From Streptomyces sp. DvalAA-14 (GTDB lineage Bacteria; Actinomycetota; Actinomycetes; Streptomycetales; Streptomycetaceae): 43,123 bases of DNA. The notes below the pieces were generated by a model. That model saw nothing but the letters and a program-made list of their open reading frames with translations, had not been told where the DNA came from and did not search any database. The stretch lies in the NCBI RefSeq assembly GCF_900091855.1, contig NZ_FMCH01000273.1, forward strand, positions 1 through 43,123, written 5' to 3'. Below, piece after piece: positions 17,609 to 28,260 of this stretch (the stretch's first letter is position 1; each line of letters starts with the position of its first letter). Position numbers and translations under genes: made by a program.

Positions 17609-17671
17609 ATGTCGTCACCTATTTTTTATGATCATGCAGTACCCTGTCCCGCCACATAGAGAGGCCATGTG

Positions 17672-18193
17672 ATGTCGGGTCGTATGAATGTGCAGGTCAG
17701 CCCCGGCAAAGAGGCAGATCTGGGCGCACTCACCGATATCTACAACCACTACATCCGTGAGACGGCCGTCACCTTTGACGTAACCCCCGTGACCCCCGAC
17801 GAGCGCCGACCGTGGCTGCTCTCCCACCCGGAAGACGGACCCCACCGTCTTTTGGTTGCCCGCGCCCCCGGTTCGGGCGGCCAGGTCCTCGGATACGCGA
17901 CCAGCAGCCCCTTCCGGCCAAGGGCGTCGTACGCAACCTCGGTCGAGACGAGCATCTACCTCGCACGGGGCGCCGGCGGCCGCGGGATCGGCACATTGCT
18001 CTACACGAGGCTTTTCGAGGCGCTCAGGGGCGTGGACGTACATCGTGCCTACGCGGGTGTCACTCTCCCTAACGCTGCATCCGTGCGTATTCATTGCCGC
18101 TTCGGATTCCGGCAGGTCGGCGTGTACGAAGAGGTCGGCCGGAAGTTCGGGATCTATCACGATGTGGCGTGGTTCGAGAAGCCTCTGGACTAG
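17672..18193 (+). CDS. GNAT acetyltransferase, phosphinothricin/methionine-sulfoximine acetyltransferase-like
   Basis: A 173-residue single-domain acetyltransferase resembling the PAT/Bar and YwnH group, which N-acetylates phosphinothricin, methionine sulfoximine or other amino acids. Visible family features are DIYNHYIRETAVTFDVTPVT near the N-terminus, the acetyl-CoA loop YLARGAGGRGIGTLLY, and the late VTLPNAASVRIHCRFGFRQVGVYEEVGRKFGIYHDVAWFEK. ATG 17672 is chosen with GAGAGG seven bases upstream. GTG 17669 is an alternative. The gene is divergent from hrdD. Detoxification of a self-made or environmental amine is possible, but the substrate is unknown. Confidence 0.88.
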   Translation: MSGRMNVQVSPGKEADLGALTDIYNHYIRETAVTFDVTPVTPDERRPWLLSHPEDGPHRLLVARAPGSGGQVLGYATSSPFRPRASYATSVETSIYLARGAGGRGIGTLLYTRLFEALRGVDVHRAYAGVTLPNAASVRIHCRFGFRQVGVYEEVGRKFGIYHDVAWFEKPLD

Positions 18194-18253: not shown

Positions 18254-18310
18254 TTGTTTGAAGGTTCAAACAAGTTGGGTTACGGTCCTACCGTACGTTT
18301 GAAACTTCAA
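18254..18310 (+). promoter_or_regulatory. MarR-type operators overlapping the dioxygenase promoter
   Basis: A perfect 9-2-9 palindrome occupies 18254-18273 (half-site TTGTTTGAA). A second, TTGAA-AC-TTCAA, occupies 18299-18310 and abuts the Shine-Dalgarno. A plausible promoter has -35 TTCAAA (18265-18270) and -10 TACCGT (18289-18294), so the first operator covers -35 and the second lies near the transcription start. A third symmetric element, TACGGT-CCT-ACCGTA (18281-18295), overlaps the -10. Confidence 0.75.
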
Positions 18311-18320
18311 GGAGGGCGCG

Positions 18321-19106
18321 ATGTCCACCGCAGCTCCGGAGCGCATGCCCGCGCTCTACCTCTCGCACGGCGCCCCGCCGCTCGCCGACGACCCGGTGTG
18401 GCCGGGCGAGCTCGCTGCTTGGGCTGCGGGCCTGTCGCGGCCGAAAGCGATCCTGGTGATCTCGGCGCACTGGGAGGAGGCTCCGCTGGCGATCGGAGCG
18501 ACAGCGACGGTCCCCCTCATGTATGACTTCTGGGGTTTCCCGGAGCACTACTACCAGGTGACCTACGCCGCCCCCGGTGCCCCCGCCCTCGCCGAGGACC
18601 TCCGCAAGCTTCTGCGCGGCGCGGGCCACCGGGTGCAGGACATCCCGGACCGCGGGCTGGACCACGGTGCGTACGTCCCTCTTGTGGAGATGTTCCCCGC
18701 CGCGGACATCCCGGTACTCCAGGTGTCGATGCCCAGCCTGGACCCCGGGAAGCTGCTGGAGATCGGACGGCGCTTGGCGCCGTTGCGCGACGAGGGCGTT
18801 CTCATCGTCGGCAGCGGTTTCTTCACCCACAACCTGGCCGCTCTGCGGCACGTGGGCGAGCGTCCGCCGAGCTGGTCGGCGGAGTTCGACGACTGGGGGA
18901 ACCGCGCGCTGGGCGCCGGGGACCTCGATGCCCTGCTGGACTTCCGGCACAAGGCGCCGGCGGGCCGACTGGCACACCCGCGCACGGAGCATTTCGCGCC
19001 GCTGTTCGTTACGCTCGGCGCCGCCGAGTCCGAACTCGGCAGCCAGCGCAGCATCATCGACGGCTTCTGGATGGGCCTGGCGAAGCGCTCCATCCAGTTC
19101 GGCTGA
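18321..19106 (+). CDS. Class III extradiol ring-cleavage dioxygenase, DODA/LigB-type
   Basis: This 261-residue protein belongs to the LigB superfamily group containing plant 4,5-DOPA dioxygenase and E. coli YgiD. These open catechol rings with a non-haem metal. Probable metal and catalytic histidines are His16 in LSHGAPP, the His in VISAHWEEA, the His in GSGFFTHNLAAL and that in TEHFAPLFVTLGAA. The size and motif order fit the family, and the protein is cytoplasmic. ATG 18321 follows AGGAGG by five bases. The upstream palindromes match the one before the MarR gene at 22633. Control by that regulator and a role against catechol or quinone stress are inferred. The lipoprotein gene follows after 18 bp. 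Confidence 0.88.
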   Translation: MSTAAPERMPALYLSHGAPPLADDPVWPGELAAWAAGLSRPKAILVISAHWEEAPLAIGATATVPLMYDFWGFPEHYYQVTYAAPGAPALAEDLRKLLRGAGHRVQDIPDRGLDHGAYVPLVEMFPAADIPVLQVSMPSLDPGKLLEIGRRLAPLRDEGVLIVGSGFFTHNLAALRHVGERPPSWSAEFDDWGNRALGAGDLDALLDFRHKAPAGRLAHPRTEHFAPLFVTLGAAESELGSQRSIIDGFWMGLAKRSIQFG

Positions 19107-19124
19107 ACAGGAAGACTTCTCTTC

Positions 19125-19769
19125 ATGCCCAAGTTCGCGCACAAGCGACGCATCACGACCGGTGTGGCCGTCCTGGCCGGAGCGGCGGCGCTGGCCGCCT
19201 GCAGCTCAGGGTCCGGTACCGGTTCCGGCCGTGAGGACTCCGGCGCGGCGGCCACTTCGCCCGCGGCCGACAGCAAGCCCTCAGCACCTCCGTCGTCGCT
19301 CTCCTGGCCGGCTCCCGCAGACGCCTCCGCCCAGGTGAAGGCCGCGGGCCTGCCGATGCTGGGCCAGGAGGGGCAGGTGCTGCACATCCACAGTCACCTG
19401 GACGTGTTCGTTGACGGCAAGGCCGTCACCGTCCCGGCCGAGATCGGCATCGACCTCGTCAAGCAGCAGATCAGTCCGCTGCACACACATGACACGTCGG
19501 GCGTGGTGCACATCGAGTCGCCGGTGAAGACCGACTTCACCCTCGGCGAGTTCATGACCGAGTGGAACGTACCGATCAGCAAGGACGCCCTCGGCCCGCT
19601 GAAGAGCGGCGGCGGCAAAGAGCTGCGCCTTTACGTCAACGGCAAGGAGCAGACCGGTGACCCGGCGGCGCTGAAGCTCGTGGCGCACGATGAGATCGCC
19701 GTCGTCTACGGGTCGCCGAGCGATCCGGTGAAGGTGCCGAGTTCGTACGACTGGCCCGAGGGGCTGTAG
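19125..19769 (+). CDS. Secreted lipoprotein with HxHxHLD and PLHTHD motifs, function unknown
   Basis: The 214-residue precursor has a signal sequence with lipobox ALAAC; Cys26 is the expected lipidation site. A Ser/Ala/Pro-rich linker (to about residue 70) leads to a soluble domain. It opens LHIHSHLDVFVDGKAVTVPA and contains SPLHTHDTSGVVHIESPV, then FTLGEFMTEWNVPIS and a beta-rich end YVNGKEQTGDPAALKLVAHD. Two His clusters close in sequence suggest a metal site on a small beta domain, but I know no demonstrated function. It is 18 bp behind the dioxygenase and probably co-transcribed. The perfect 22-bp hairpin after it ends that unit. Confidence 0.8.
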   Translation: MPKFAHKRRITTGVAVLAGAAALAACSSGSGTGSGREDSGAAATSPAADSKPSAPPSSLSWPAPADASAQVKAAGLPMLGQEGQVLHIHSHLDVFVDGKAVTVPAEIGIDLVKQQISPLHTHDTSGVVHIESPVKTDFTLGEFMTEWNVPISKDALGPLKSGGGKELRLYVNGKEQTGDPAALKLVAHDEIAVVYGSPSDPVKVPSSYDWPEGL

Positions 19770-19861
19770 ATCAGGCCGTCGTACAGTCCGCTTCTCCGTA
19801 TAGGGCTGGAAAGCTGATACGCGGGGATCGCGCGTCGTCGCCGCTTCCATCAGAAACGACA

Positions 19862-19916
19862 AACGGCAGGCCGCCACCCCTCCGGGTGATGTCTGGAGGG
19901 GTGGCGGCCTGCCGTT
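19862..19916. terminator. Bidirectional terminator, perfect 22-bp stem
   Basis: Arms 19862-19883 and 19895-19916 are perfectly complementary around an 11-base loop. The hairpin lies between the convergent lipoprotein and DHA2 exporter genes and can serve both strands. Confidence 0.9.
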
Positions 19917-19962
19917 CAGTGTCACCGCCGGCCGTACTGTCGTATCGGCCGAACAGCGGTGA

Positions 19963-21483
19963 TCAGTGAGCGATGACCGGAATGGCGAAGTCCTCGATCG
20001 ACTCGTCGCCGTCGGCGCGCTCCGCGTGATTCTGGACCTCGGCGTTGACCAGGAAGAACGCCAGCAGGGCGGCGACTGCCAGGATGCCCGTGGCCCAGTA
20101 GATGGCCACCGAGTAGCCGTGAACGTTCGCCTCGTTGATCAGGAGCTGGCTCTTCGTGCCGCCCGCTCCGGTGGCGCGGTCCTTGATCCAGGAGGCCGTT
20201 GCGCTGGCCGCGAGGGTGTTCAGCAGGGCGGTACCGATGGAGCCGCCGACCTGCTGCGAGGTGTTGACCATCGCGGACGCGACGCCCGAGTCCTCGGGCC
20301 GCACGCCGTGCGTGGCCAGACTCATGGCGGGCATGAAGGCCGTGCCCATGCCGAGACCCATGAGGATCAGGCCCGGCAGCAGAACTTCGGCGTAGTTGGA
20401 GTCGACCTTGATCTGGGCCAGGATGCCCATACCGATCGCGGCGACCAGGAATCCCGGCGCCATCAGCAGGCGCGGGCGAACCCGCAGCATCAGGCGGGTA
20501 CCGATCTGGGTGGAGCCGACGATCATGCCACCCACCATCGGCAGGAAGGCGACGCCCGACTTCAGGGCGGAGTAGCCCATGACCGTCTGCAGGTAGTAGG
20601 TCAGAAACAGGAAGAGGCCGAACATGCCGATGATGGCCAGGCCCAGCGAGGAGTAGACGCCTCCGCGGTTGCGGTCCGTGACGACGCGCAGCGGCAGGAG
20701 CGGTGCCTTGACCCTGCTCTCGACGAACGCGAATGCCGCCAGCAGCAGCACGGAAGCAACGAGCAGGCTGATCGTCGAGGCGGATGCCCAGCCGGCGGAC
20801 TCGGCGCGGCTGAAGCCGTAGACGAGGGCGACGAGGCCGACGCTGGCCAGGACCACACCGGGAATGTCGAGGCGGTTGTGGTTGCGCCCCTGTGCCGGTT
20901 CATTGACGAACTTGACCGCGCCGATGACGGCGATGATCGCGAAGGCGATGTTGACGAAGAGCGCCCAGCGCCAGTTCAGGTACTCGGTGAGGACGCCGCC
21001 GAGGATCAGGCCGACGGCCGCGCCGGCGCCGGCGATGGCGCCGTACACGCCGAATGCCTTGGCGCGTTCCTTGGCGTCGGTGAACATCACCGCGAGCAGC
21101 GACAGGGCGGCGGGCGCGAGCAGCGCGCCGAACAGGCCCTGGAGGGCGCGGGCACCGAGCAGCATGGCGGTGTTGACGGCCGCGCCACCGAGAGCGGAGG
21201 CGGCGGCGAAGCCGAGCAGGCCGACGATAAAGGTGTTCTTGCGTCCCCACAGGTCGGAGACGCGTCCACCGAAGAGCAGAAGGCCACCGAAGGCCAGGGT
21301 GTAGGCAGTGACGACCCACTGGCGGTTGCCGTCGGAGATGCCGAGGTCGGCCTGGGCGGACGGCAGCGCGATGTTCACCACGGTGGCGTCGAGTACGACC
21401 ATCAGCTGGGCGAGCGCTATGAAGGTGAGCGCTGTCCAGCGCTTCGGATCGGGCTGGAGCGTTTCAGGCATGGCTGGTCTCAC
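19963..21483 (-). CDS. DHA2-family (EmrB/QacA-like) drug:proton exporter
   Basis: A 506-residue, 14-helix MFS exporter. The DHA2 hallmarks are LDATVVNIALPSAQADLG in helix 1, the QWVVTAYTLAFGGLLLFGGR helix-2 region followed by VSDLWGRKN (motif A), and the antiporter motif C region GAIAGAGAAVGLILGGVLTEYL in helix 5. Probable roles are export of antibiotics, dyes or biocides. The start is GTG 21483 or ATG 21471; neither has a clear ribosome site. The TetR gene lies directly upstream on the same strand with a strong promoter between them, so repression by that TetR is likely. A paralogue with the same architecture lies at 24144. Confidence 0.92.
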   Translation of the reverse strand: MRPAMPETLQPDPKRWTALTFIALAQLMVVLDATVVNIALPSAQADLGISDGNRQWVVTAYTLAFGGLLLFGGRVSDLWGRKNTFIVGLLGFAAASALGGAAVNTAMLLGARALQGLFGALLAPAALSLLAVMFTDAKERAKAFGVYGAIAGAGAAVGLILGGVLTEYLNWRWALFVNIAFAIIAVIGAVKFVNEPAQGRNHNRLDIPGVVLASVGLVALVYGFSRAESAGWASASTISLLVASVLLLAAFAFVESRVKAPLLPLRVVTDRNRGGVYSSLGLAIIGMFGLFLFLTYYLQTVMGYSALKSGVAFLPMVGGMIVGSTQIGTRLMLRVRPRLLMAPGFLVAAIGMGILAQIKVDSNYAEVLLPGLILMGLGMGTAFMPAMSLATHGVRPEDSGVASAMVNTSQQVGGSIGTALLNTLAASATASWIKDRATGAGGTKSQLLINEANVHGYSVAIYWATGILAVAALLAFFLVNAEVQNHAERADGDESIEDFAIPVIAH

Positions 21484-21757
21484 TAAAGAAGATGCGGAGT
21501 GACAGGACGTGGGGACGTGTGTCAGCGGTCCCGGCCGTGATGCCGGTCCTGGGTCGGTTCGTGGACCCGGTGCCGGGCGTCCGGGGGACGAGCGGTCTTG
21601 TCTGACGACGGTCGTTTCTCAGTGTTTCGCGGTCGGTCGTTCTCGCTTCGGGCTACGGATGGGACCCGGCGGATTCCGGGTGCCTGGTGGTGTCTGGTGG
21701 CTTCACCGGCCTGGTGGGCTTCGCGAGCCTCACGAGCCTGACACCTGCGACGAACCG
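21484..21757 (-). other. Long 5' leader of the DHA2 exporter
   Basis: From the predicted start point near 21757 to the exporter start is about 270 bases with no credible gene. A 79-codon frame (21522-21761) is open but has poor coding composition. The early leader holds CCACCAG-like repeats near 21680-21715. I do not recognise a known riboswitch. Confidence 0.4.
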
Positions 21758-21762
21758 CCAAC

Positions 21763-21791
21763 GTTATAACCCGACTCGTACGACTTGCGAA
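21763..21791 (-). promoter_or_regulatory. Promoter with candidate TetR operator for the DHA2 exporter
   Basis: On the minus strand TTCGCA (21791-21786) and TATAAC (21768-21763) are 17 bases apart, a good sigma-70-type promoter just past the tetR stop. The 8-bp palindrome TCGTACGA sits in the spacer and is a candidate operator for the adjacent TetR protein. Confidence 0.6.
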
Positions 21792-22448
21792 CTATTTATG
21801 GCAGCCTTGCAGCTCCTCCAGGGTCGCCGCGGTCCCCACGAGCTTCGAATGCGCTGGCGCGCGCAGCCCGTCGAGGAAGAGTTGAAGGTAGCGGGTGGCG
21901 AAACGGTCGAAGCCGACGCAACCTGTGCCCGGGAGAGGGCGGGTGAGTTGTGTCAGTACGACCATCAGATCGCCGACGGCGATGTCGGCGCGCAATTGGC
22001 CTGCGGACTGGGCCCGTTCCACGATCGCGTTGACCGACCCGCTCAGGCGCGCGACCTCGACGGTAACCTGCGGATCCAGGTGGTCGAAGGCCTCGGAGAG
22101 CATGGGGCACAACGCCCCGATGCGCTCCTCCGCCGCCTCGAAGACGAATCTGCGCAACGCCGAGAAGGCATCGGGCTCTTCGGCGAGAGCATCCTCCGCC
22201 CGTTGCGCGGTGCGGGCCATCACCGAGAGCATGACCTGTCGGATCAGGTCCATCCGATCAGCGAAGTGCCGATAGAGAGTGGCGTTGCCGACGCCGGCCC
22301 GGCGCGCCACTTCGTCCAGCGCCACATCGGGGCCGAACTCGACGATCGCCTCGCGGGCGGCGCTGACGATCCGCTCGCGGTTCCGGGTGGCGTCCGCGCG
22401 CAGCCGTGCCGTGCGGGGCCTGACGACGGTGTCGGCTTCCGGTGTCAC
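21792..22448 (-). CDS. TetR/AcrR-family transcriptional repressor
   Basis: The 218-residue protein has the N-terminal TetR helix-turn-helix domain: RERIVSAAREAIVEFGPDVA, then LDEVARRAGVGNATLYRHFADR, the recognition helix with the invariant Tyr-Arg-His-Phe pattern. A C-terminal ligand-binding domain follows. The GTG start at 22448 is supported by AAGGGAG six to seven bases upstream. It removes a poor-coding extension that could be read back to 22526. It precedes the DHA2 exporter on the same strand and is divergent from marR. The obvious job is ligand-relieved repression of the exporter and possibly of itself. Confidence 0.9.
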   Translation of the reverse strand: MTPEADTVVRPRTARLRADATRNRERIVSAAREAIVEFGPDVALDEVARRAGVGNATLYRHFADRMDLIRQVMLSVMARTAQRAEDALAEEPDAFSALRRFVFEAAEERIGALCPMLSEAFDHLDPQVTVEVARLSGSVNAIVERAQSAGQLRADIAVGDLMVVLTQLTRPLPGTGCVGFDRFATRYLQLFLDGLRAPAHSKLVGTAATLEELQGCHK

Positions 22449-22572
22449 GTCAGGCTCCCTTCGCCTTCGGGGTCGGTGCGATCTGTACTGAGAGGCGAAA
22501 CGGAAAGCAACTCCCCACTTGCCCACTTGAGATCAAACGGGGAAGCAGTCCCCGGATATTTCATCCGACCGG

Positions 22573-22588
22573 TGTGAACCACGTCACA
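22573..22588 (+). promoter_or_regulatory. Crp-like palindrome upstream of marR
   Basis: TGTGA-N6-TCACA is a perfect palindrome, and it also fits a GTG-N6-GNCAC pattern attributed to streptomycete Crp. It lies about 45 bases before the marR start and upstream of a TATTTT -10 candidate (22600-22605). Confidence 0.45.
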
Positions 22589-22606
22589 TTGTGGGATGAT
22601 ATTTTA

Positions 22607-22618
22607 TTGAACCTTCAA
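22607..22618 (+). promoter_or_regulatory. MarR-type operator before marR (autoregulation)
   Basis: TTGAA-CC-TTCAA is the exact reverse complement of the 12-base core of the dioxygenase operator at 18258-18269. It lies directly after a -10 candidate and overlaps the AAGGAG ribosome site of marR, the arrangement expected for autorepression. Confidence 0.7.
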
Positions 22619-22632
22619 GGAGTGCACGTACC

Positions 22633-23118
22633 ATGAACACCATGCGATGGCTGACCGAAGAAGAGCAGGCGACCTGGCGAGCATTCCTGCACGCCACGAC
22701 TCTGCTGGACGACCACCTCGACCGTCAGCTGCAGCGCGACGCGGGCATACCGCACATGTATTACGCCCTGCTCAGCACACTGTCGGAGACGCCCGGCCGG
22801 CAGATGCGGATGACCGAACTCGCCGAACAGACCAAGATCACCCGTTCACGTCTCTCCCATGCCGTCGCCCGCCTCGAGGGCAACGGCTGGCTGCGCCGGG
22901 AGAGCTGCCCCTCCGACCGCCGCGGGCAAGTGTGTGTGCTGACGGACGCGGGATACGAGGAGCTGGTGCGGACGGCTCCCGGGCACGTCAGCGCGGTACG
23001 GACGGCGATCTTCGACCGGCTCACCCCCGAGCAGACCGCACGCCTCGGTGAGATCTCCCGGATCATCGCGGAGGGCCTGCATCAGCCGGAGGATGCCGAC
23101 CTGCCCTGGTTGCGCTGA
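22633..23118 (+). CDS. MarR-family transcriptional regulator
   Basis: A 161-residue winged-helix protein with an N-terminal dimerisation helix (WLTEEEQATWRAFLHATTLL). The HTH is MRMTELAEQTKITRSRLSHAVARLE, and the wing carries SCPSDRRGQVCVLTDAGYEEL, the DxRxxxVxLT motif of MarR proteins. ATG 22633 follows AAGGAG at ten bases; ATG 22642 is less well placed. A TTGAA-NN-TTCAA operator lies immediately upstream. The same core recurs before the DODA-type dioxygenase and, in relaxed form, before the monooxygenase operon. That suggests a small regulon responding to phenolics, quinones or oxidants. Ligand and regulon are inferred. It is convergent with the ABC ATPase gene. Confidence 0.9.
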   Translation: MNTMRWLTEEEQATWRAFLHATTLLDDHLDRQLQRDAGIPHMYYALLSTLSETPGRQMRMTELAEQTKITRSRLSHAVARLEGNGWLRRESCPSDRRGQVCVLTDAGYEELVRTAPGHVSAVRTAIFDRLTPEQTARLGEISRIIAEGLHQPEDADLPWLR

Positions 23119-23134
23119 GTCCTCGGCACCGACC

Positions 23135-23180
23135 GCGGCCCGGGGCCGCCGCGCCGGAGAGGCGCGGGTCGTCACCCGCG
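23135..23180. terminator. Paired short hairpins between convergent marR and ABC ATPase
   Basis: A GC-rich palindrome at 23135-23149 is followed by a perfect 7-bp stem with a four-base loop at 23163-23180. The second hairpin contains the ABC gene's stop codon. Together they probably terminate both transcripts. Confidence 0.5.
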
Positions 23181-24002
23181 GCCGGACCTGGCCAGCCAGC
23201 GCCCCTCGTGCCGACTGACCTCGATCGGCCGACCGAAGCATTCCGTCATACGATCGCCGGTCAGCACATCGGCGACCGGCCCGGAAGTGAGCACCCGGCC
23301 CTCTTTGAGGAGCAGCACATGCCCGATCGCGGGTGACAGCTCCTCCAGGTGGTGCGTGACAGTAATGGTCGCCAGCCCCGTACGAGTGACTGCGAGGCGA
23401 TGCATGGCGTCGATCAGATCTTCACGTGAAGGCAGGTCCAGGGCGTTGAACGGTTCGTCGAGCAGCAGGAGCGACGGGTCGGCCATCAGTGCCCGCGCCA
23501 CCAGGACGCGGGCGCGCTGCCCCCCGGAGCACACGCCGTAGGGTCGCTCGGCCAGCTCCTTGATCTCCAGTTCCGCCAGCAGGGCGTGCGCCCGCTCCCG
23601 CACCTCGGAGTCGTAGCTGCGCCAGAGCGGCTGCACCGTGCCGGTATGACCGGTCAGTACGACTGTGTGTGCGGTGGCGTCCTGCGGGACCTTTTGGGCG
23701 GAGGACACCAGACCGATGTGCGCACGCAACTCGCGCATGTCGACACGACCGAGCCGGTGGCTCAGCACCTCGACCGTTCCCGTGGTGGGGTGCGTCAGCG
23801 CACCGATGAGCCGAAGTACGGTCGTCTTACCGGCGCCGTTCGCACCCAGCAGCGCCCAGTGCTCACCGGCGCGAACGGTCCAGGTGACGTCGTCGAGGAT
23901 GATCTGGCCGGTGGTGTAGCGGCGCACGCTCACCGCGTCGAGCGCCGCGACCGCCAGCGGCGCGCCTTCCCCGGCACCTGGCGGCGTCCCGTTGGCTGTC
24001 AT
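23172..24002 (-). CDS. ABC transporter ATP-binding protein (orphan)
   Basis: A complete 276-residue nucleotide-binding domain: Walker A GANGAGKTT (about residues 54-62), Q-loop region LVSSAQKVPQ, signature CSGGQRARVLVARAL, Walker B LLLLDEP, D-loop NALD and H-loop TVTHH. No permease or binding-protein gene is adjacent. Its arrangement resembles stand-alone ATPases of the YlmA/ModF type, so the partner is either encoded elsewhere or absent. No Shine-Dalgarno precedes ATG 24002. TAACGT a few bases upstream could be the -10 of a leaderless message. It lies downstream of the second DHA2 exporter on the same strand after a 141-bp gap with nothing evident. Confidence 0.9.
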   Translation of the reverse strand: MTANGTPPGAGEGAPLAVAALDAVSVRRYTTGQIILDDVTWTVRAGEHWALLGANGAGKTTVLRLIGALTHPTTGTVEVLSHRLGRVDMRELRAHIGLVSSAQKVPQDATAHTVVLTGHTGTVQPLWRSYDSEVRERAHALLAELEIKELAERPYGVCSGGQRARVLVARALMADPSLLLLDEPFNALDLPSREDLIDAMHRLAVTRTGLATITVTHHLEELSPAIGHVLLLKEGRVLTSGPVADVLTGDRMTECFGRPIEVSRHEGRWLARSGRG

Positions 24003-24143
24003 ACGAAAACGTTAGCTGTACCCGCCACCTTCTCGTGCGGCCTTCCGCGATGTGGATGCCGGCCGGATTCCCGGACTCTTCTCGCGCCGAGGGCCGCTGC
24101 CGAGGGCGACAGCTCCGGTGCCCGGGATCCGGCACCGATGGAG

Positions 24144-25673
24144 TTACGCCGCAGATCGGGTGGCCGGGTCGCCGGCCAGGCTCTTGGGCACGCCACGCCG
24201 GTACAGGAGCAGGGTGACGACGAAGCCGACGCCGAAGAAACCGGCCGACCACCAGTACGCGACCATGAAGCTGTGCAGCTGCGCCCGTGCGGCCAGCGAG
24301 GGGGACGGCCGTTTGCCCGTCTCGAAGTTCGTGGCGGCGCTGGTCGCCAGCGTATTGAGCAGCGAGGTGCCGATGGAGCCTCCGACCTGCTGCGAGGTGT
24401 TCACCATCGCCGAGGCCACGCCCGCGTCCCGCTCCGTGACACCGGCCGTTGCGAGGTTCAGGCCGGTGGCGAAGATCATGCCGAGACCCAGTCCCAGGAT
24501 GAGTGTCGGTGGCAGCACGTGGGGCGCGTAGCTGCTGCTGCGATCGAGCGTGGTCAGCCACGCCATGGCCCCGGCGGACAGCAGCATCCCGGTCGGCACC
24601 ACCGGCTTGGCACCCACGCGCGGCACCAGCACATTGGTGGTGATTACCGAGGTGGCCATGATGACCGCGACCATCGGCAGGAAGGCAAGGCCGGTCTTCA
24701 CCGGTGAGTAGAACAGGGTGCGCTGCAGATAGAAGGTCAAGAAGAGGAACACACCGAAGATGCCGGCACCCGAGATGAACAACGCAAGATACGACGCGCC
24801 TCGGTCCCGGTCGGTGACCACCCGCAGCGGCAGCAGCGGGTTCGGCGCACGCCGCTGCCACCATACGAAGACGATGAGCAGTACGCCGCCGGCCACCAGG
24901 AAGCCCCAGGTGCTGGGCGCGCTCCAGCCGTGCCGTTGAGCGTTGGAGAACCCGTAGACGATGCAGAACAGGCCGCCGGACACAACCACCGTCCCCGGGA
25001 TGTCCAGATCGGGCCGGTTGGGCGTCGCCTCCGAACTCAGCAGCCGCAGGCCGCCGAAAAAGGCGATGAACGCGAAGAGCAGATTGACGTACAGGCACCA
25101 GCGCCAGTCGAGGTACTCGGTGAGCAGGCCGCCGAGAAGCAATCCGACCGCGCCGCCGCCGCCCGCGATGGCGCCGTAGATGCCAAAAGCCTTCGCCCGC
25201 TCCTTGGGGACGGTGAACGTCGTCGTCAGAAGTGACAGCGCGGCCGGCGCGAGCAGCGCCCCGAACAATCCCTGCACCGCACGGGCCACCACGAGCACCT
25301 CGAAGCTCGGCGCGCCACCACCGACCGCGGACGCCACCGCGAAGCCGATCAGGCCGATCAGAAAAGCCCTCTTGCGGCCGATGAGGTCGGCGAGCCGGCC
25401 ACCGAACAGCAGCAGGGACCCGAATGCCAGTGCGTAGGCGGTCACGATCCACTGCCGGTTGCCATCGGAGAATCCGAGAGCCCGCTGAGCGGACGGCAGG
25501 GCGATGTTCACAATGGTCGCGTCCAGTACGACCATCAGCTGGGCGAGGGAGACCACGCTGAGCACCCACCAGCGGTGGGCCGGAGCGTCCACGTCGGGGG
25601 TGTGGTGGGACTTGTGCTGCCCGCCACCGCCCTGCCCCGGAGGCGTAGAGCCGTCATCGGTGCCACGGGCCAT
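24144..25673 (-). CDS. Second DHA2-family drug:proton exporter
   Basis: A 509-residue 14-helix exporter closely resembling the one at 19963: LDATIVNIALPSAQRALG, DGNRQWIVTAYALAFG, RLADLIGRKRAFLIG, GAIAGGGGAVGLLLGGLLTE. The shared late segment GVASAMVNTSQQVGGSIGT shows they are paralogues. Its N-terminus has a distinct Gly/Gln/His-rich cytoplasmic lead. ATG 25673 has AAGGAG eight bases upstream. Unlike its paralogue it has no dedicated regulator gene directly upstream. Export of a toxic small molecule is the likely role; the substrate is unknown. Confidence 0.92.
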   Translation of the reverse strand: MARGTDDGSTPPGQGGGGQHKSHHTPDVDAPAHRWWVLSVVSLAQLMVVLDATIVNIALPSAQRALGFSDGNRQWIVTAYALAFGSLLLFGGRLADLIGRKRAFLIGLIGFAVASAVGGGAPSFEVLVVARAVQGLFGALLAPAALSLLTTTFTVPKERAKAFGIYGAIAGGGGAVGLLLGGLLTEYLDWRWCLYVNLLFAFIAFFGGLRLLSSEATPNRPDLDIPGTVVVSGGLFCIVYGFSNAQRHGWSAPSTWGFLVAGGVLLIVFVWWQRRAPNPLLPLRVVTDRDRGASYLALFISGAGIFGVFLFLTFYLQRTLFYSPVKTGLAFLPMVAVIMATSVITTNVLVPRVGAKPVVPTGMLLSAGAMAWLTTLDRSSSYAPHVLPPTLILGLGLGMIFATGLNLATAGVTERDAGVASAMVNTSQQVGGSIGTSLLNTLATSAATNFETGKRPSPSLAARAQLHSFMVAYWWSAGFFGVGFVVTLLLYRRGVPKSLAGDPATRSAA

Positions 25674-25767
25674 GATGGGGTCTCCTTAACCGCGACAGCT
25701 CGTCCCGATTTAACACGCTATGTGCCGCACTACGGGGATGCCATGCGGGCCAGGGGTGACATGACGC

Positions 25768-25804
25768 GGGGCCGGCCCCGGACTCGTGGTCCCGGACCGG
25801 CCCC
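25768..25804 (-). terminator. GC-rich terminator hairpin
   Basis: Arms 25768-25783 and 25789-25804 pair at 14 of 16 positions around a five-base loop, 20 bases past the stop of the minus-strand hypothetical gene. Confidence 0.65.
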
Positions 25805-25823
25805 GTTCGGTGCGCGGCTCGCA

Positions 25824-26228
25824 TCAGATCCGCGGCAGCGCGGGCGCGCGGGCGGGTGGCCCGATTCGCGCCCCGGGAAAGGCGCCGAGGAGTTGGCCGC
25901 CCCTGATCCCCGAGCCGGGCGCGGTCACACCTCCTCCGCGCGAGAGCGTTGGGGCGGTGGCTTGTCCGAAGATCAGGCGATCGACGGCGAGTGTCGTCGA
26001 CATCGGCGCGGGCGCGGGCATGAGTACGGGCTTGGGCGCCGGCATCCGGTGACCGTTCGTTCCGGCCGCGGCGCCGCGGGCGTCGTCGGCGTGCTGCCGC
26101 GAGCGCGACTTCCCCTGTGCGAAGGCGGTCAGCACAGCGGTGAGCACCTCGGCGACCACGCGCACGGCTCGCGTCCACCACGCGAATGCTGCCGTACCCG
26201 CCCGGTCGAGCAACTGAGGAGTGTTCAC
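25824..26228 (-). CDS. Hypothetical protein, Ala/Pro/Gly-rich
   Basis: A 134-residue protein with consistently high third-position G/C. It starts at GTG 26228, about nine bases after AAGGG. The first ~35 residues could form an amphipathic or membrane-associated helix (FAWWTRAVRVVAEVLTAVLTAFA). The remainder is Pro/Ala/Gly-rich with repeated Met-Pro-Ala-Pro segments (PAPKPVLMPAPAPMSTT). I recognise no family. It stands alone between two terminator-like hairpins, so it is probably its own transcription unit. Confidence 0.5.
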   Translation of the reverse strand: MNTPQLLDRAGTAAFAWWTRAVRVVAEVLTAVLTAFAQGKSRSRQHADDARGAAAGTNGHRMPAPKPVLMPAPAPMSTTLAVDRLIFGQATAPTLSRGGGVTAPGSGIRGGQLLGAFPGARIGPPARAPALPRI

Positions 26229-26421
26229 GCGGTGCGCCCTTCTCGAAACCGGCCGCCGCGGCGTCCCCGTTTCACCGGATGTGCGGCACCAACACAGTCA
26301 TCAGTAACCGCGCGTTCGAGAGGACTAACGCATCGTCACTCCAATGGCGCGGTCTGACGAGCAGATCAGCGCCAACGGGTGTAGGGCCCCAGGTGCCACG
26401 ACAGAACGCATCTCGCGTCAG

Positions 26422-26448
26422 TGGGGTGATTACGGCGTAATCACCCCA
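26422..26448. terminator. Perfect 12-bp hairpin after the FMN reductase operon
   Basis: Arms 26422-26433 and 26437-26448 pair perfectly around GGC, about 60 bases past the reductase stop. This is a good terminator for the minus-strand monooxygenase operon. Confidence 0.7.
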
Positions 26449-26506
26449 GTCCGCGTCGCCGCTCAGCGCCCACTCGGCACCGATTACTCAGCGCCTGCCT
26501 AAGACG

Positions 26507-27121
26507 TCATTCCTCAGCGGCCAGAGCCGCGAGTTGCTCCGCGAAGGGGACGACCGTCTCGTCGGCCTCCGAGCGGCGCGCGAGGGGGCGTGCCTCGATC
26601 AGGGCAGCCAGCTCCAGCGCCGCCCGGTCGACACGGCTGTCGAGCGCGCCGTCCCCACCCGTACCCCAGTCCTCGGAGGCCGCGTACACCGCTGTCGGTA
26701 TGACAATCGCCCGCAGATAGGCGAAGAGGGGGCGCATCGCGTGCTCGAGCACCAGCGAGTGACGGGCGCTGCCACCCGTTGCCCCGATCAGCACAGGAGT
26801 GCCGGCCAGCGCGTCCTTGTCGATGGTGTCGAAGAACGACTTGAACAGGCCGCTGTACGAGCCGGTGAAGACCGGCGTGACGACGATCAGACCGTCGGCA
26901 CCGGTCACGGACTCGACGGCGTCGCGCAACCGCGGACCCGGGAAACCGGTGACCATGTTCTGGGCGATCTCGTTCGCCAGCTCGCGCAGCTCGATCACCT
27001 GGACATCGAGGTCTCCCTCCCCTGTCTGCCGCCGGGTGGCCTCGGCCAGCCGGTCGGCGAGCAGCCTCGTCGAAGACGGGAGGCTGAGCCCGGCCGTGAC
27101 CACCACGAGGTTCTTTGTCAT
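26507..27121 (-). CDS. NADPH-dependent FMN reductase
   Basis: A 204-residue flavodoxin-like oxidoreductase of the MsuE/SsuE/CE1759 type. It supplies reduced FMN to a partner monooxygenase. The FMN phosphate loop is AGLSLPSSTRLLADRLAEA near the N-terminus. VVTPVFTGSYSGLFKSFFD and IGATGGSARHSLVLEHAMRPLFAYL are the flavin- and NADPH-binding segments. Its ATG overlaps the stop of the upstream luciferase-like monooxygenase as ATGA. This tight coupling matches the well-known two-component pair in actinobacteria. Regulation is expected from the palindrome at 28243. Confidence 0.92.
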   Translation of the reverse strand: MTKNLVVVTAGLSLPSSTRLLADRLAEATRRQTGEGDLDVQVIELRELANEIAQNMVTGFPGPRLRDAVESVTGADGLIVVTPVFTGSYSGLFKSFFDTIDKDALAGTPVLIGATGGSARHSLVLEHAMRPLFAYLRAIVIPTAVYAASEDWGTGGDGALDSRVDRAALELAALIEARPLARRSEADETVVPFAEQLAALAAEE

Positions 27122-28224
27122 GCCTGTGCCTCCTGCGGCTCAGTAACTTCGGCGTCACGGCTCGCGACGAGCGCCTGGTGCGTAGGGCCGTCCGGCACGT
27201 CCGCCGGGCGCTTCTTGGCGAATTCCTCGCGCAGCACCGGCACGATCTCCTCACCCAGGATGTCCAGTTGCTCCAGAACGGTCTTCAGGGGCAGACCGGC
27301 GTGGTCCATCAGGAACAGCTGACGCTGGTAGTCGCCGAAGGTGTCCCGGAAGGCCAGCGTCTTGTCGATGACCTCCTGCGGGGAGCCGACGGTCAGCGGC
27401 GTCTGGTCGGTGAAGTCCTCCAGCGACGGACCGTGCCCGTAAACCGGTGCGTTGTCGAAGTAGGGCCGGAACTCGCGCACCGCGTCCTGGGAATTCTTCC
27501 GGACGAAGACCTGCCCGCCGAGACCGACGATCGCCTGTTGGGGCGTGCCGTGGCCGTAGTGGGCGTAGCGCTCGCGGTAGAGGTTGATGAGGCGCTTGAA
27601 GTGGTCCTTCGGCCAGAAGATGTTGTTGGCGAAGAAGCCGTCGCCGTAGTACGCGGCCTGCTCGGCTATCTCCGGGCTGCGGATGGAGCCGTGCCAGACG
27701 AACGGGGGCACGCCGTCGAGAGGGCGCGGCGTGGACGTGAAGGACTGCAGCGGTGTGCGGAACTTGCCCGCCCAGTCCACCACGTCCTCACGCCACAGCT
27801 TGTGCAGCAGCGCGTAGTTCTCGACGGCCAGCGGTATGCCTTGGCGGATGTCCTTGCCGAACCACGGATAGACGGGGCCGGTGTTGCCGCGCCCCAACAT
27901 CAGGTCGACGCGCCCGTCGGCCAGGTGTTGCAGCATCGCGAAGTCCTCGGCGATCTTCACCGGGTCGTTCGTGGTGATGAGGGTGGTCGACGTGGAGAGG
28001 ATCAGACGCTCGGTGCGTGCGGCGATATAACCGAGCATGGTCGTGGGAGACGACGGCACGAAGGGCGGATTGTGGTGCTCACCCGTCGCGAAGACGTCGA
28101 GTCCGACCTCCTCGGCCTTGAGCGCAATGGTGACCATCGCCTTGATCCGCTCGTGCTCGCTGGGGGTCCGCCCGGTGGTCGGGTCCGCGGTGACGTCGCC
28201 GACCGTGAAGATACCGAACTGCAT
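27118..28224 (-). CDS. Luciferase-like flavin-dependent monooxygenase
   Basis: A TIM-barrel bacterial luciferase-family monooxygenase of 368 residues that uses reduced FMN and oxygen. Family landmarks are MQFGIFTVGDVT at the N-terminus, EEVGLDVFATGEHHNPPFVPSSPTT, RLILSTSTTLITTNDPVKIAEDFAMLQHLADGRVDLMLGRGN and the C-terminal VGSPQEVIDKTLAF. It pairs with the FMN reductase that overlaps its stop. ATG 28224 is preceded by GGGAG within three bases. The upstream in-frame extension is poorly coding. A palindrome lies 19 bases upstream. The substrate (a carbonyl, sulfonate or xenobiotic) cannot be told from sequence. Confidence 0.92.
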   Translation of the reverse strand: MQFGIFTVGDVTADPTTGRTPSEHERIKAMVTIALKAEEVGLDVFATGEHHNPPFVPSSPTTMLGYIAARTERLILSTSTTLITTNDPVKIAEDFAMLQHLADGRVDLMLGRGNTGPVYPWFGKDIRQGIPLAVENYALLHKLWREDVVDWAGKFRTPLQSFTSTPRPLDGVPPFVWHGSIRSPEIAEQAAYYGDGFFANNIFWPKDHFKRLINLYRERYAHYGHGTPQQAIVGLGGQVFVRKNSQDAVREFRPYFDNAPVYGHGPSLEDFTDQTPLTVGSPQEVIDKTLAFRDTFGDYQRQLFLMDHAGLPLKTVLEQLDILGEEIVPVLREEFAKKRPADVPDGPTHQALVASRDAEVTEPQEAQA

Positions 28225-28242
28225 TTCTCCCACCGTCCCATT

Positions 28243-28260
28243 TGGTTGATTGTTCAACCA
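28243..28260 (-). promoter_or_regulatory. Palindromic operator of the monooxygenase operon
   Basis: TGGTTGA and TCAACCA are perfect inverted repeats around TTGT. Its core TTGAT-TG-TTCAA resembles the TTGAA-NN-TTCAA sites before marR and the dioxygenase. Confidence 0.55.

Follow-up and report, generated by a model that had tools for sequence, protein, structure and literature searches.

In a 43,123-nucleotide stretch of the Streptomyces sp. DvalAA-14 genome (contig NZ_FMCH01000273.1, positions 1 to 43,123; hereafter the window), a short palindrome recurs upstream of a marR-type regulator gene, of a gene for a DODA/YgiD-type extradiol dioxygenase (the DODA gene) and, in relaxed form, of a flavin mononucleotide (FMN)-dependent monooxygenase gene. 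A repressor already known from Streptomyces almost certainly binds this palindrome. The MarR protein encoded from 22633 is very likely an orthologue of S. coelicolor SCO3205 that represses its own gene and the DODA gene, and the site ahead of the monooxygenase and its FMN reductase partner is probably served mainly by a RosR-like MarR paralogue. A previous reading of the window from its letters alone (the sequence-only reading) had assigned all three targets to one MarR protein. We retain that assignment for marR itself and for the DODA gene, given their conserved operators, divergent neighbours and the binding reported for SCO3205, whereas for the monooxygenase the RosR-like paralogue is favoured. 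Control by the SCO3205 orthologue of itself and of the ring-cleavage enzyme is strongly supported, as judged from operators conserved in the genus, divergent genes in most Streptomyces loci and in vitro binding of SCO3205; the operators of the regulator and dioxygenase genes are already published for S. coelicolor. The features on which this part rests are as follows.

18254 to 18273: predicted distal DODA operator, TTGTTTGAA-GG-TTCAAACAA, with core TTGAAGGTTCAA at 18258-18269; position occupied in most orthologues
18299 to 18310: predicted proximal DODA operator, TTGAAACTTCAA; directly abuts the ribosome-binding site GGAGG
18321 to 19106, plus strand: DODA/YgiD-type class III extradiol dioxygenase with a LigB domain (Pfam PF02900, 6.4e-33; PDB 8in2, 3.3e-54; ygiD 2pw6, 1.7e-42)
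22607 to 22618: predicted marR operator, TTGAACCTTCAA; directly abuts the ribosome-binding site GGAG and is seen upstream of marR in 30/30 fetched orthologues
22633 to 23118, plus strand: predicted MarR repressor, SCO3205 orthologue (PDB 3zpl, 6.1e-73 over residues 4-161), with DNA-contact residues kept

Palindrome coordinates were read directly from the window sequence, and controls consisted of shuffles for the window and the reversed motif for the genome. Direct reading bears out the TTGAA-GG-TTCAA core at 18258-18269, its exact reverse complement TTGAACCTTCAA at 22607-22618 and the second copy, TTGAA-AC-TTCAA, at 18299-18310, all as the sequence-only reading had them. The perfect 20-base palindrome that it described at 18254-18273 consists of two perfect 9-base arms around an unpaired central GG, and hence is not fully perfect. 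Two of the copies abut ribosome-binding sites, as chance palindromes in AT-rich ribosome-site sequence might. We nevertheless rejected a chance origin as next to inconceivable: with at most one mismatch allowed, the motif matches the window four times where shuffles average 0.06, none of 100 shuffles reaches four, the three genome-wide places of the strict form all lie in the window, and the sites are conserved while their centre bases vary.

The known repressor was identified by a structure search with the 22633 protein, which returned 3zpl at 6.1e-73 against 1.3e-30 for the next structure. We take 3zpl to be SCO3205 because PMC3737563 (Stevenson et al. 2013) contains that PDB code together with many mentions of SCO3205. 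All 13 aligned side-chain contact residues (R60, M61, T62, R72, S73, R74, S76, H77, R81, R90, D96, R98 and Q100 in SCO3205 numbering) are identical in the window protein, each numbered one lower. These positions are invariant across a set of 80 named homologues, the best 80 of 467 loci from a marR-alignment scan of genome collections, except for R80 (R in 79/80); five of the eleven closest of these relatives are named Actinacidiphila and the others Streptomyces, and the genus of the window is accordingly taken to be Actinacidiphila. Lys97, a main-chain contact in SCO3205, is Arg in the window protein and was left out of the contact count. The Trp/His pair of the salicylate pocket (W15/H118) is conserved in the window protein, and a wing cysteine, C92, occurs in 80/80 named and 30/30 genus loci (overlapping sets) and is absent from the RosR-like paralogue.

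In PMC3737563 the divergent genes sco3205 and sco3204, the latter encoding a class III extradiol dioxygenase, are separated by a region with two SCO3205 operators, for which 24-mer footprints and in vitro dissociation constants (KD) of 1.3 and 2.4 nM are given. Sites upstream of sco5533 and sco5049 are judged there to be likely genuine SCO3205 sites; sco5533 is given as a homologue of a polyisoprenoid-binding, base-induced periplasmic protein, and we read its product as YceI-type. According to the same paper, its authors could assign SCO3205 no function despite a crystal structure with DNA, and PMC9739823 (2022) still lists it as of unknown function. Contact between protein and operator is thus in print for the orthologue and by analogy would extend to the window protein, whose putative operators are identified by their conservation.

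The strict motif TTGAANNTTCAA occurs at exactly three places in the 7,942,353-base genome (18258, 18299 and 22607), all upstream of the DODA/LigB gene or marR, and its reversed control at none. The looser TTGANNNNTCAA has nine places against four for its control: the four window sites, one each on contigs C229 and C625 (C codes denote contigs of this genome and L codes fetched loci), two inside open reading frames (ORFs) on C309 and C450, and one on C308, where TTGACAGGTCAA (L005, 1501-1512) lies 23 bases upstream of a PadR-type regulator gene. Within this list the TTGAW-NN-TTCAA form in which the sequence-only reading had cast the repeat is confined to four places, all of them the window sites. 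Matches to the published consensus TTnAAnnnTCAA number 10 forward and 5 reverse, or 12 places once the three palindromic ones found on both strands are counted singly, against one for the control. Six of these are the four window sites and those on C229 and C625. By a simple ORF reading none of the other six is shown to be an operator: those on C515 and C595 lie inside ORFs, those on C60 and C304 are ambiguous, and those on C372 (upstream of a flavoprotein oxidoreductase gene) and C554 fall in apparent gaps.

We then compared 35 genomes of the same genus (G codes), for which per-genome match counts are complete and individual marR, DODA, monooxygenase, RosR-like and strict-site matches are those among the matches listed. 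The strict motif totals 126 sites over these genomes, compared with 13 matches for its control, and 79 of those sites fall within fetched marR and DODA loci. TTGAANNTTCAA stands upstream of marR in all 30 fetched orthologues, its centre bases varying; it lies 26-32 bases from the match start in 28 loci and 52-53 bases in two, which also have a second copy further upstream. G008, G026 and G030 have a marR orthologue at 68-69%, whose adjoining sites were tallied with the DODA loci, and G016 (71% complete) and G034 have only marR matches of 54% or less among the matches listed. DODA orthologues of at least 75% were fetched for 30 genomes; G016 has a 36% match only, and no DODA match was found in G007, G019, G020 and G021 among the 35 genomes searched. 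By TTGANNNNTCAA, two sites precede the DODA gene in 26/30 fetched loci, one in three and none in one, and 51 of the 55 sites are exactly TTGAANNTTCAA. Paired sites are spaced 38-46 bp apart (mean 41.0), near four helical turns and not strictly phased. Among the named loci, the strict symmetric form lies within 200 bases of marR in 27/80, and 46/67 intergenic regions between divergent DODA and marR genes contain TTGANNNNTCAA; the symmetric operator is therefore constant in the genus and takes looser forms in Streptomyces.

Searching the genome with the MarR protein gives 15 matches, one of them the query itself, and in G001 and G009 TTGAANNTTCAA also lies close to MarR paralogues that neighbour second DODA genes, so that one might assign the palindromes to a paralogue other than the 22633 protein. 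We regard this as highly unlikely, in view of the operator upstream of marR itself in 30/30 fetched loci, the reported binding of the structurally characterised orthologue at the corresponding positions, and the decay of the proximal DODA site in G034 (one genome), where this marR was not found among the matches listed.

In the window some 4 kb separates the DODA and marR genes, which are not divergent; between them lie a lipoprotein-like gene and these two:

19963 to 21483, minus strand: DHA2-type major facilitator superfamily (MFS) efflux gene
21792 to 22526, minus strand: TetR gene

In 67/80 named loci marR has a DODA orthologue as its divergent neighbour, eight have the order of the window, and in five no DODA gene was seen in the fetched stretch. 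The published consensus appears on one or other strand in 67/67 of the divergent intergenic regions; 200 mononucleotide shuffles gave it in 0.125 loci on average. Divergent DODA and marR genes also occur within the genus, in G010, G014 and G030; G008 and G026 share this arrangement, except that a GTP cyclohydrolase II gene comes first in their DODA operon. A convergent MFS gene follows marR in 65/69 loci (L201-L269), with TetR beside it in 64/69, and in most fetched Streptomyces loci both lie on the far side of marR. Their place between DODA and marR in the window therefore suggests an inversion. The window would thus represent a rearranged, split copy of a known divergent pair; the split is probably derived, because the two genes are adjacent in 67/80 named loci and in some genus members. 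The sequence-only reading had called the regulon non-contiguous on the chromosome, which is true of the window and probably a derived state. We treat gene order as not strictly defining the SCO3205 orthologue group, and the 18321 gene is likely the sco3204 orthologue from its place beside marR. A second DHA2-type MFS gene (24144-25673, minus strand) flanks the TetR-marR-ABC stretch together with that at 19963-21483. A GNAT gene at 17669-18193 adjoins DODA in the window and in many named loci; it resembles arsinothricin/phosphinothricin N-acetyltransferases, below the NCBIfam cut-offs.

The LigB domain of the 18321 protein scores 114.4 bits against a Pfam cut-off of 26.3, and the protein is similar to solved 4,5-DOPA (dihydroxyphenylalanine) dioxygenases. 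It stays below the equivalog cut-off of NCBIfam NF007914 (4,5-DOPA-extradiol-dioxygenase; 166.5 against 233 bits), and we therefore place it in the DODA superfamily and leave its substrate unassigned. Other MarR paralogues have a second DODA gene (50-54% identical) no more than about 3 kb away at G001:C11, G009:C21, G015:C15, G024:C2, G028:C1, G029:C1 and G033:C18; by coordinates among the matches listed, the pairing of MarR and DODA recurs. G022 (L069) has a row of GTP cyclohydrolase II, DODA and DoxX genes, divergent from a different MarR gene and devoid of any TTGANNNNTCAA.

The third target proposed by the sequence-only reading is the monooxygenase. The genes and the site are:

26507 to 27121, minus strand: CE1759-family FMN reductase (TIGR04037, 1.3e-83); overlaps the monooxygenase gene by 4 bases
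27118 to 28224, minus strand: CE1758-family FMN-dependent luciferase-like monooxygenase (TIGR04036, 1.3e-217)
28246 to 28257, minus strand: relaxed site upstream of the monooxygenase, TTGATTGTTCAA; minus-strand reading GTGG-TTGAACAATCAA-CCAA

The longest monooxygenase ORF reaches 28449; the TIGR04036 profile starts at its residue 76, giving a probable start at 28224, 22-33 bases downstream of the site. The relaxed copy announced for this promoter is present, two bases away from the 28248 at which it had been placed. A candidate regulator is encoded on contig C625 (L009), a second MarR, 53% identical to the first and divergent from a YceI gene (genes at 933-1481 and 1599-2150). The site between this RosR-like gene and the YceI gene, TTGAACTCTCAA, matches letter for letter the footprinted S. 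coelicolor O3204 core.

To compare the sites, scoring models were trained on the marR/DODA sites and on the RosR-like sites; scores of either class with its own model are circular, and only those of the monooxygenase and GTP cyclohydrolase II sites are independent. Of the 30 fetched monooxygenase loci, 29 entered the scoring, L081 near a contig end being the one omitted, and those 25 with a site received scores; the loci of G004, G008, G016, G026 and G030 were read separately. Nearly all monooxygenase sites (24/25) score nearer the RosR-like model than the marR/DODA model (means 20.7 vs 14.6). Their consensus, GgGTgGTTGAAca.TCAACCAAat, stands beside ggGTGGTTGAACTCTCAAcaCCag for 25 RosR-like paralogue sites read in reverse. 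G/C flanks (GTTGA-N4-TCAAC) occur in 22/25 monooxygenase sites and in 0/30 marR and 0/55 DODA sites, and 0/25 monooxygenase sites equal TTGAANNTTCAA. Presence and absence were compared for one best monooxygenase copy per genome, RosR-like absence meaning absence among the matches listed: the site is intact in 25/25 genomes with the RosR-like gene against 4/9 without it (Fisher p 4.5e-4, not corrected for kinship). The five genomes lacking both site and paralogue all keep an SCO3205-type MarR. Conversely, in G034, where the RosR-like gene is present and this MarR was not found among the matches listed, the monooxygenase site is intact, and the DODA gene retains one relaxed site beside a decayed second. 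Flank similarity and the presence/absence pattern make the RosR-like paralogue the more likely main regulator of this site, with overlap possible.

The same comparisons argue against the simpler scheme in which the 22633 MarR alone controls its own, the DODA and the monooxygenase/FMN reductase promoters, and we consider that scheme unlikely. It does draw support from the minus-strand site TTGAACAATCAA, which fits the published SCO3205 consensus TTnAAnnnTCAA, and from G008, G014, G022 and G026, which keep the monooxygenase site and have no RosR-like orthologue among the matches listed. On both grounds we softened an assignment to the RosR-like paralogue as sole regulator. In those four genomes another regulator, possibly this MarR, may serve the site.

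Further observations count against the preferred reading. G007, G019 and G020 share one altered monooxygenase site, GTTGAATCAGCAAC, still a palindrome of another spacing; because the altered sequence is the same, a single event probably accounts for three of the five site losses. G005 has the RosR-like paralogue, yet its second monooxygenase copy is without a site, and one DODA orthologue (G022, L069) lacks an operator of this kind and adjoins another MarR. The recognition helices are mostly shared (SRSRLSHAV and TRSRLSHAV), 5/25 RosR-like operators are themselves TTGAANNTTCAA, and PMC3737563 has SCO3205 binding a site upstream of a gene that we read as YceI-type, the kind of gene that adjoins the paralogue here. 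For these last three reasons the regulons of the two paralogues may overlap. We nonetheless retain the RosR-like paralogue as the probable main regulator of the monooxygenase site.

Two further candidate targets emerged from the comparison. On contig C229, TTGAGATTTCAA (L004, 711-722) lies 36 bases upstream of a GTP cyclohydrolase II gene (747-1376), and an extended palindrome of the type GAGCTTGA-N4-TCAAG is conserved upstream of its orthologues. Among 24 such loci, 20 have a single GAGC-TTGA-N4-TCAA upstream, G022 has no site, the gene was not located in L170, and G008 and G026 have a strict marR-type pair instead. In the latter two genomes the gene lies between marR and DODA, behind the paired operators. 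In a separate scan that yielded 21 GTP cyclohydrolase II sites, the RosR-like model gives the slightly better score for 18/21 (means 15.8 with the marR/DODA model vs 16.3). Since these sites are not nearer the MarR model, GTP cyclohydrolase II is put forward as a possible target of the SCO3205 orthologue mainly from G008 and G026. Our literature search found no paper joining GTP cyclohydrolase II with Streptomyces, MarR and dioxygenase. In the four genomes devoid of a DODA match (G007, G019, G020 and G021; L136, L147, L283 and L282), paired TTGAANNTTCAA sites 21-23 bases apart stand upstream of a Glyoxalase/VOC-superfamily gene, assigned by Pfam on the G007 protein. This hints that a VOC enzyme displaces DODA as ring-cleavage enzyme in these species; VOC proteins have other activities besides ring cleavage.

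We propose the following mechanism. A MarR dimer would bind TTGAANNTTCAA in the promoter or ribosome-site region of its own gene and two sites about four helical turns apart upstream of the DODA gene, and both genes would, judging from the position of the sites, be repressed by block of the promoter or ribosome-site region. The protein could be released by a small ligand, aromatic or electrophilic, acting at the salicylate-type pocket (W15/H118) or at wing cysteine C92. Rearrangement in the window and its closest relatives would have put lipoprotein-like, MFS and TetR genes between DODA and marR, the operators being kept. The monooxygenase/FMN reductase pair would be served mainly by the RosR-like paralogue, with cross-binding by the SCO3205 orthologue possible. 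A role in phenolic or quinone stress is plausible from the target enzymes and the conserved ligand pocket. More tentatively, and at slightly less than even chance in our view, two sister repressors could share a dispersed aromatic-detoxification regulon, the SCO3205 orthologue acting on an exchangeable ring-cleavage enzyme (DODA or VOC) and GTP cyclohydrolase II, and the RosR-like protein on the flavin monooxygenase and YceI. In summary, comparative evidence ties the SCO3205 group in one genus to a ring-cleavage enzyme and to itself, adds GTP cyclohydrolase II, the VOC-superfamily substitute and possibly the monooxygenase (directly or via the paralogue) as candidate targets, and documents how two paired genes were separated by rearrangement while each retained its operators. 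If true, the two-repressor regulon would give a physiological role to SCO3205, structurally solved and functionally unassigned.

Several known systems invite comparison. B. subtilis MhqR, a MarR protein of the quinone stress response, represses a DoxX-like protein along with a ring-cleavage dioxygenase; its regulon differs from the window in that MhqO is VOC-type rather than LigB-type and the operator is different. RosR of C. glutamicum recognises TTGTTGAYRYRTCAACWA and controls FMN reductases and monooxygenases. RosR (Cg1324) adjoins cg1322 as the C625 MarR is divergent from a YceI gene, a likeness of gene context that bears on the 28246 site only; cg1322 is described as rosR-adjacent and proposed to bind an octaprenyl compound. 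AbsC (SCO5405; PDB 3zmd), implicated in zinc-dependent control of antibiotic production according to PMC3737563, is a MarR paralogue that shares with the window protein the Trp/His pair of the salicylate pocket. Its match is much weaker (1.3e-30 vs 6.1e-73 for 3zpl). A connection with SCO4121, an MFS pump of S. coelicolor, and a MarR was considered and dropped: the literature mentions the pump and tabulates SCO4122 as a MarR, and the structure search led to SCO3205 instead. The closest system is SCO3205/SCO3204 itself (PMC3737563; 3zpl): its MarR is orthologous to that of the window and has identical contact residues, the core operator is the same, one target encodes a class III extradiol dioxygenase, and an operator directly precedes the regulator gene. 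SCO3205 and SCO3204 are divergent with a shared intergenic region, whereas the window pair lies about 4 kb apart and is not divergent. In contrast to SCO3204, the window DODA possesses its own pair of perfect operators. The S. coelicolor sites are pseudopalindromes, whereas all fetched marR loci of the genus carry the symmetric TTGAA-NN-TTCAA.

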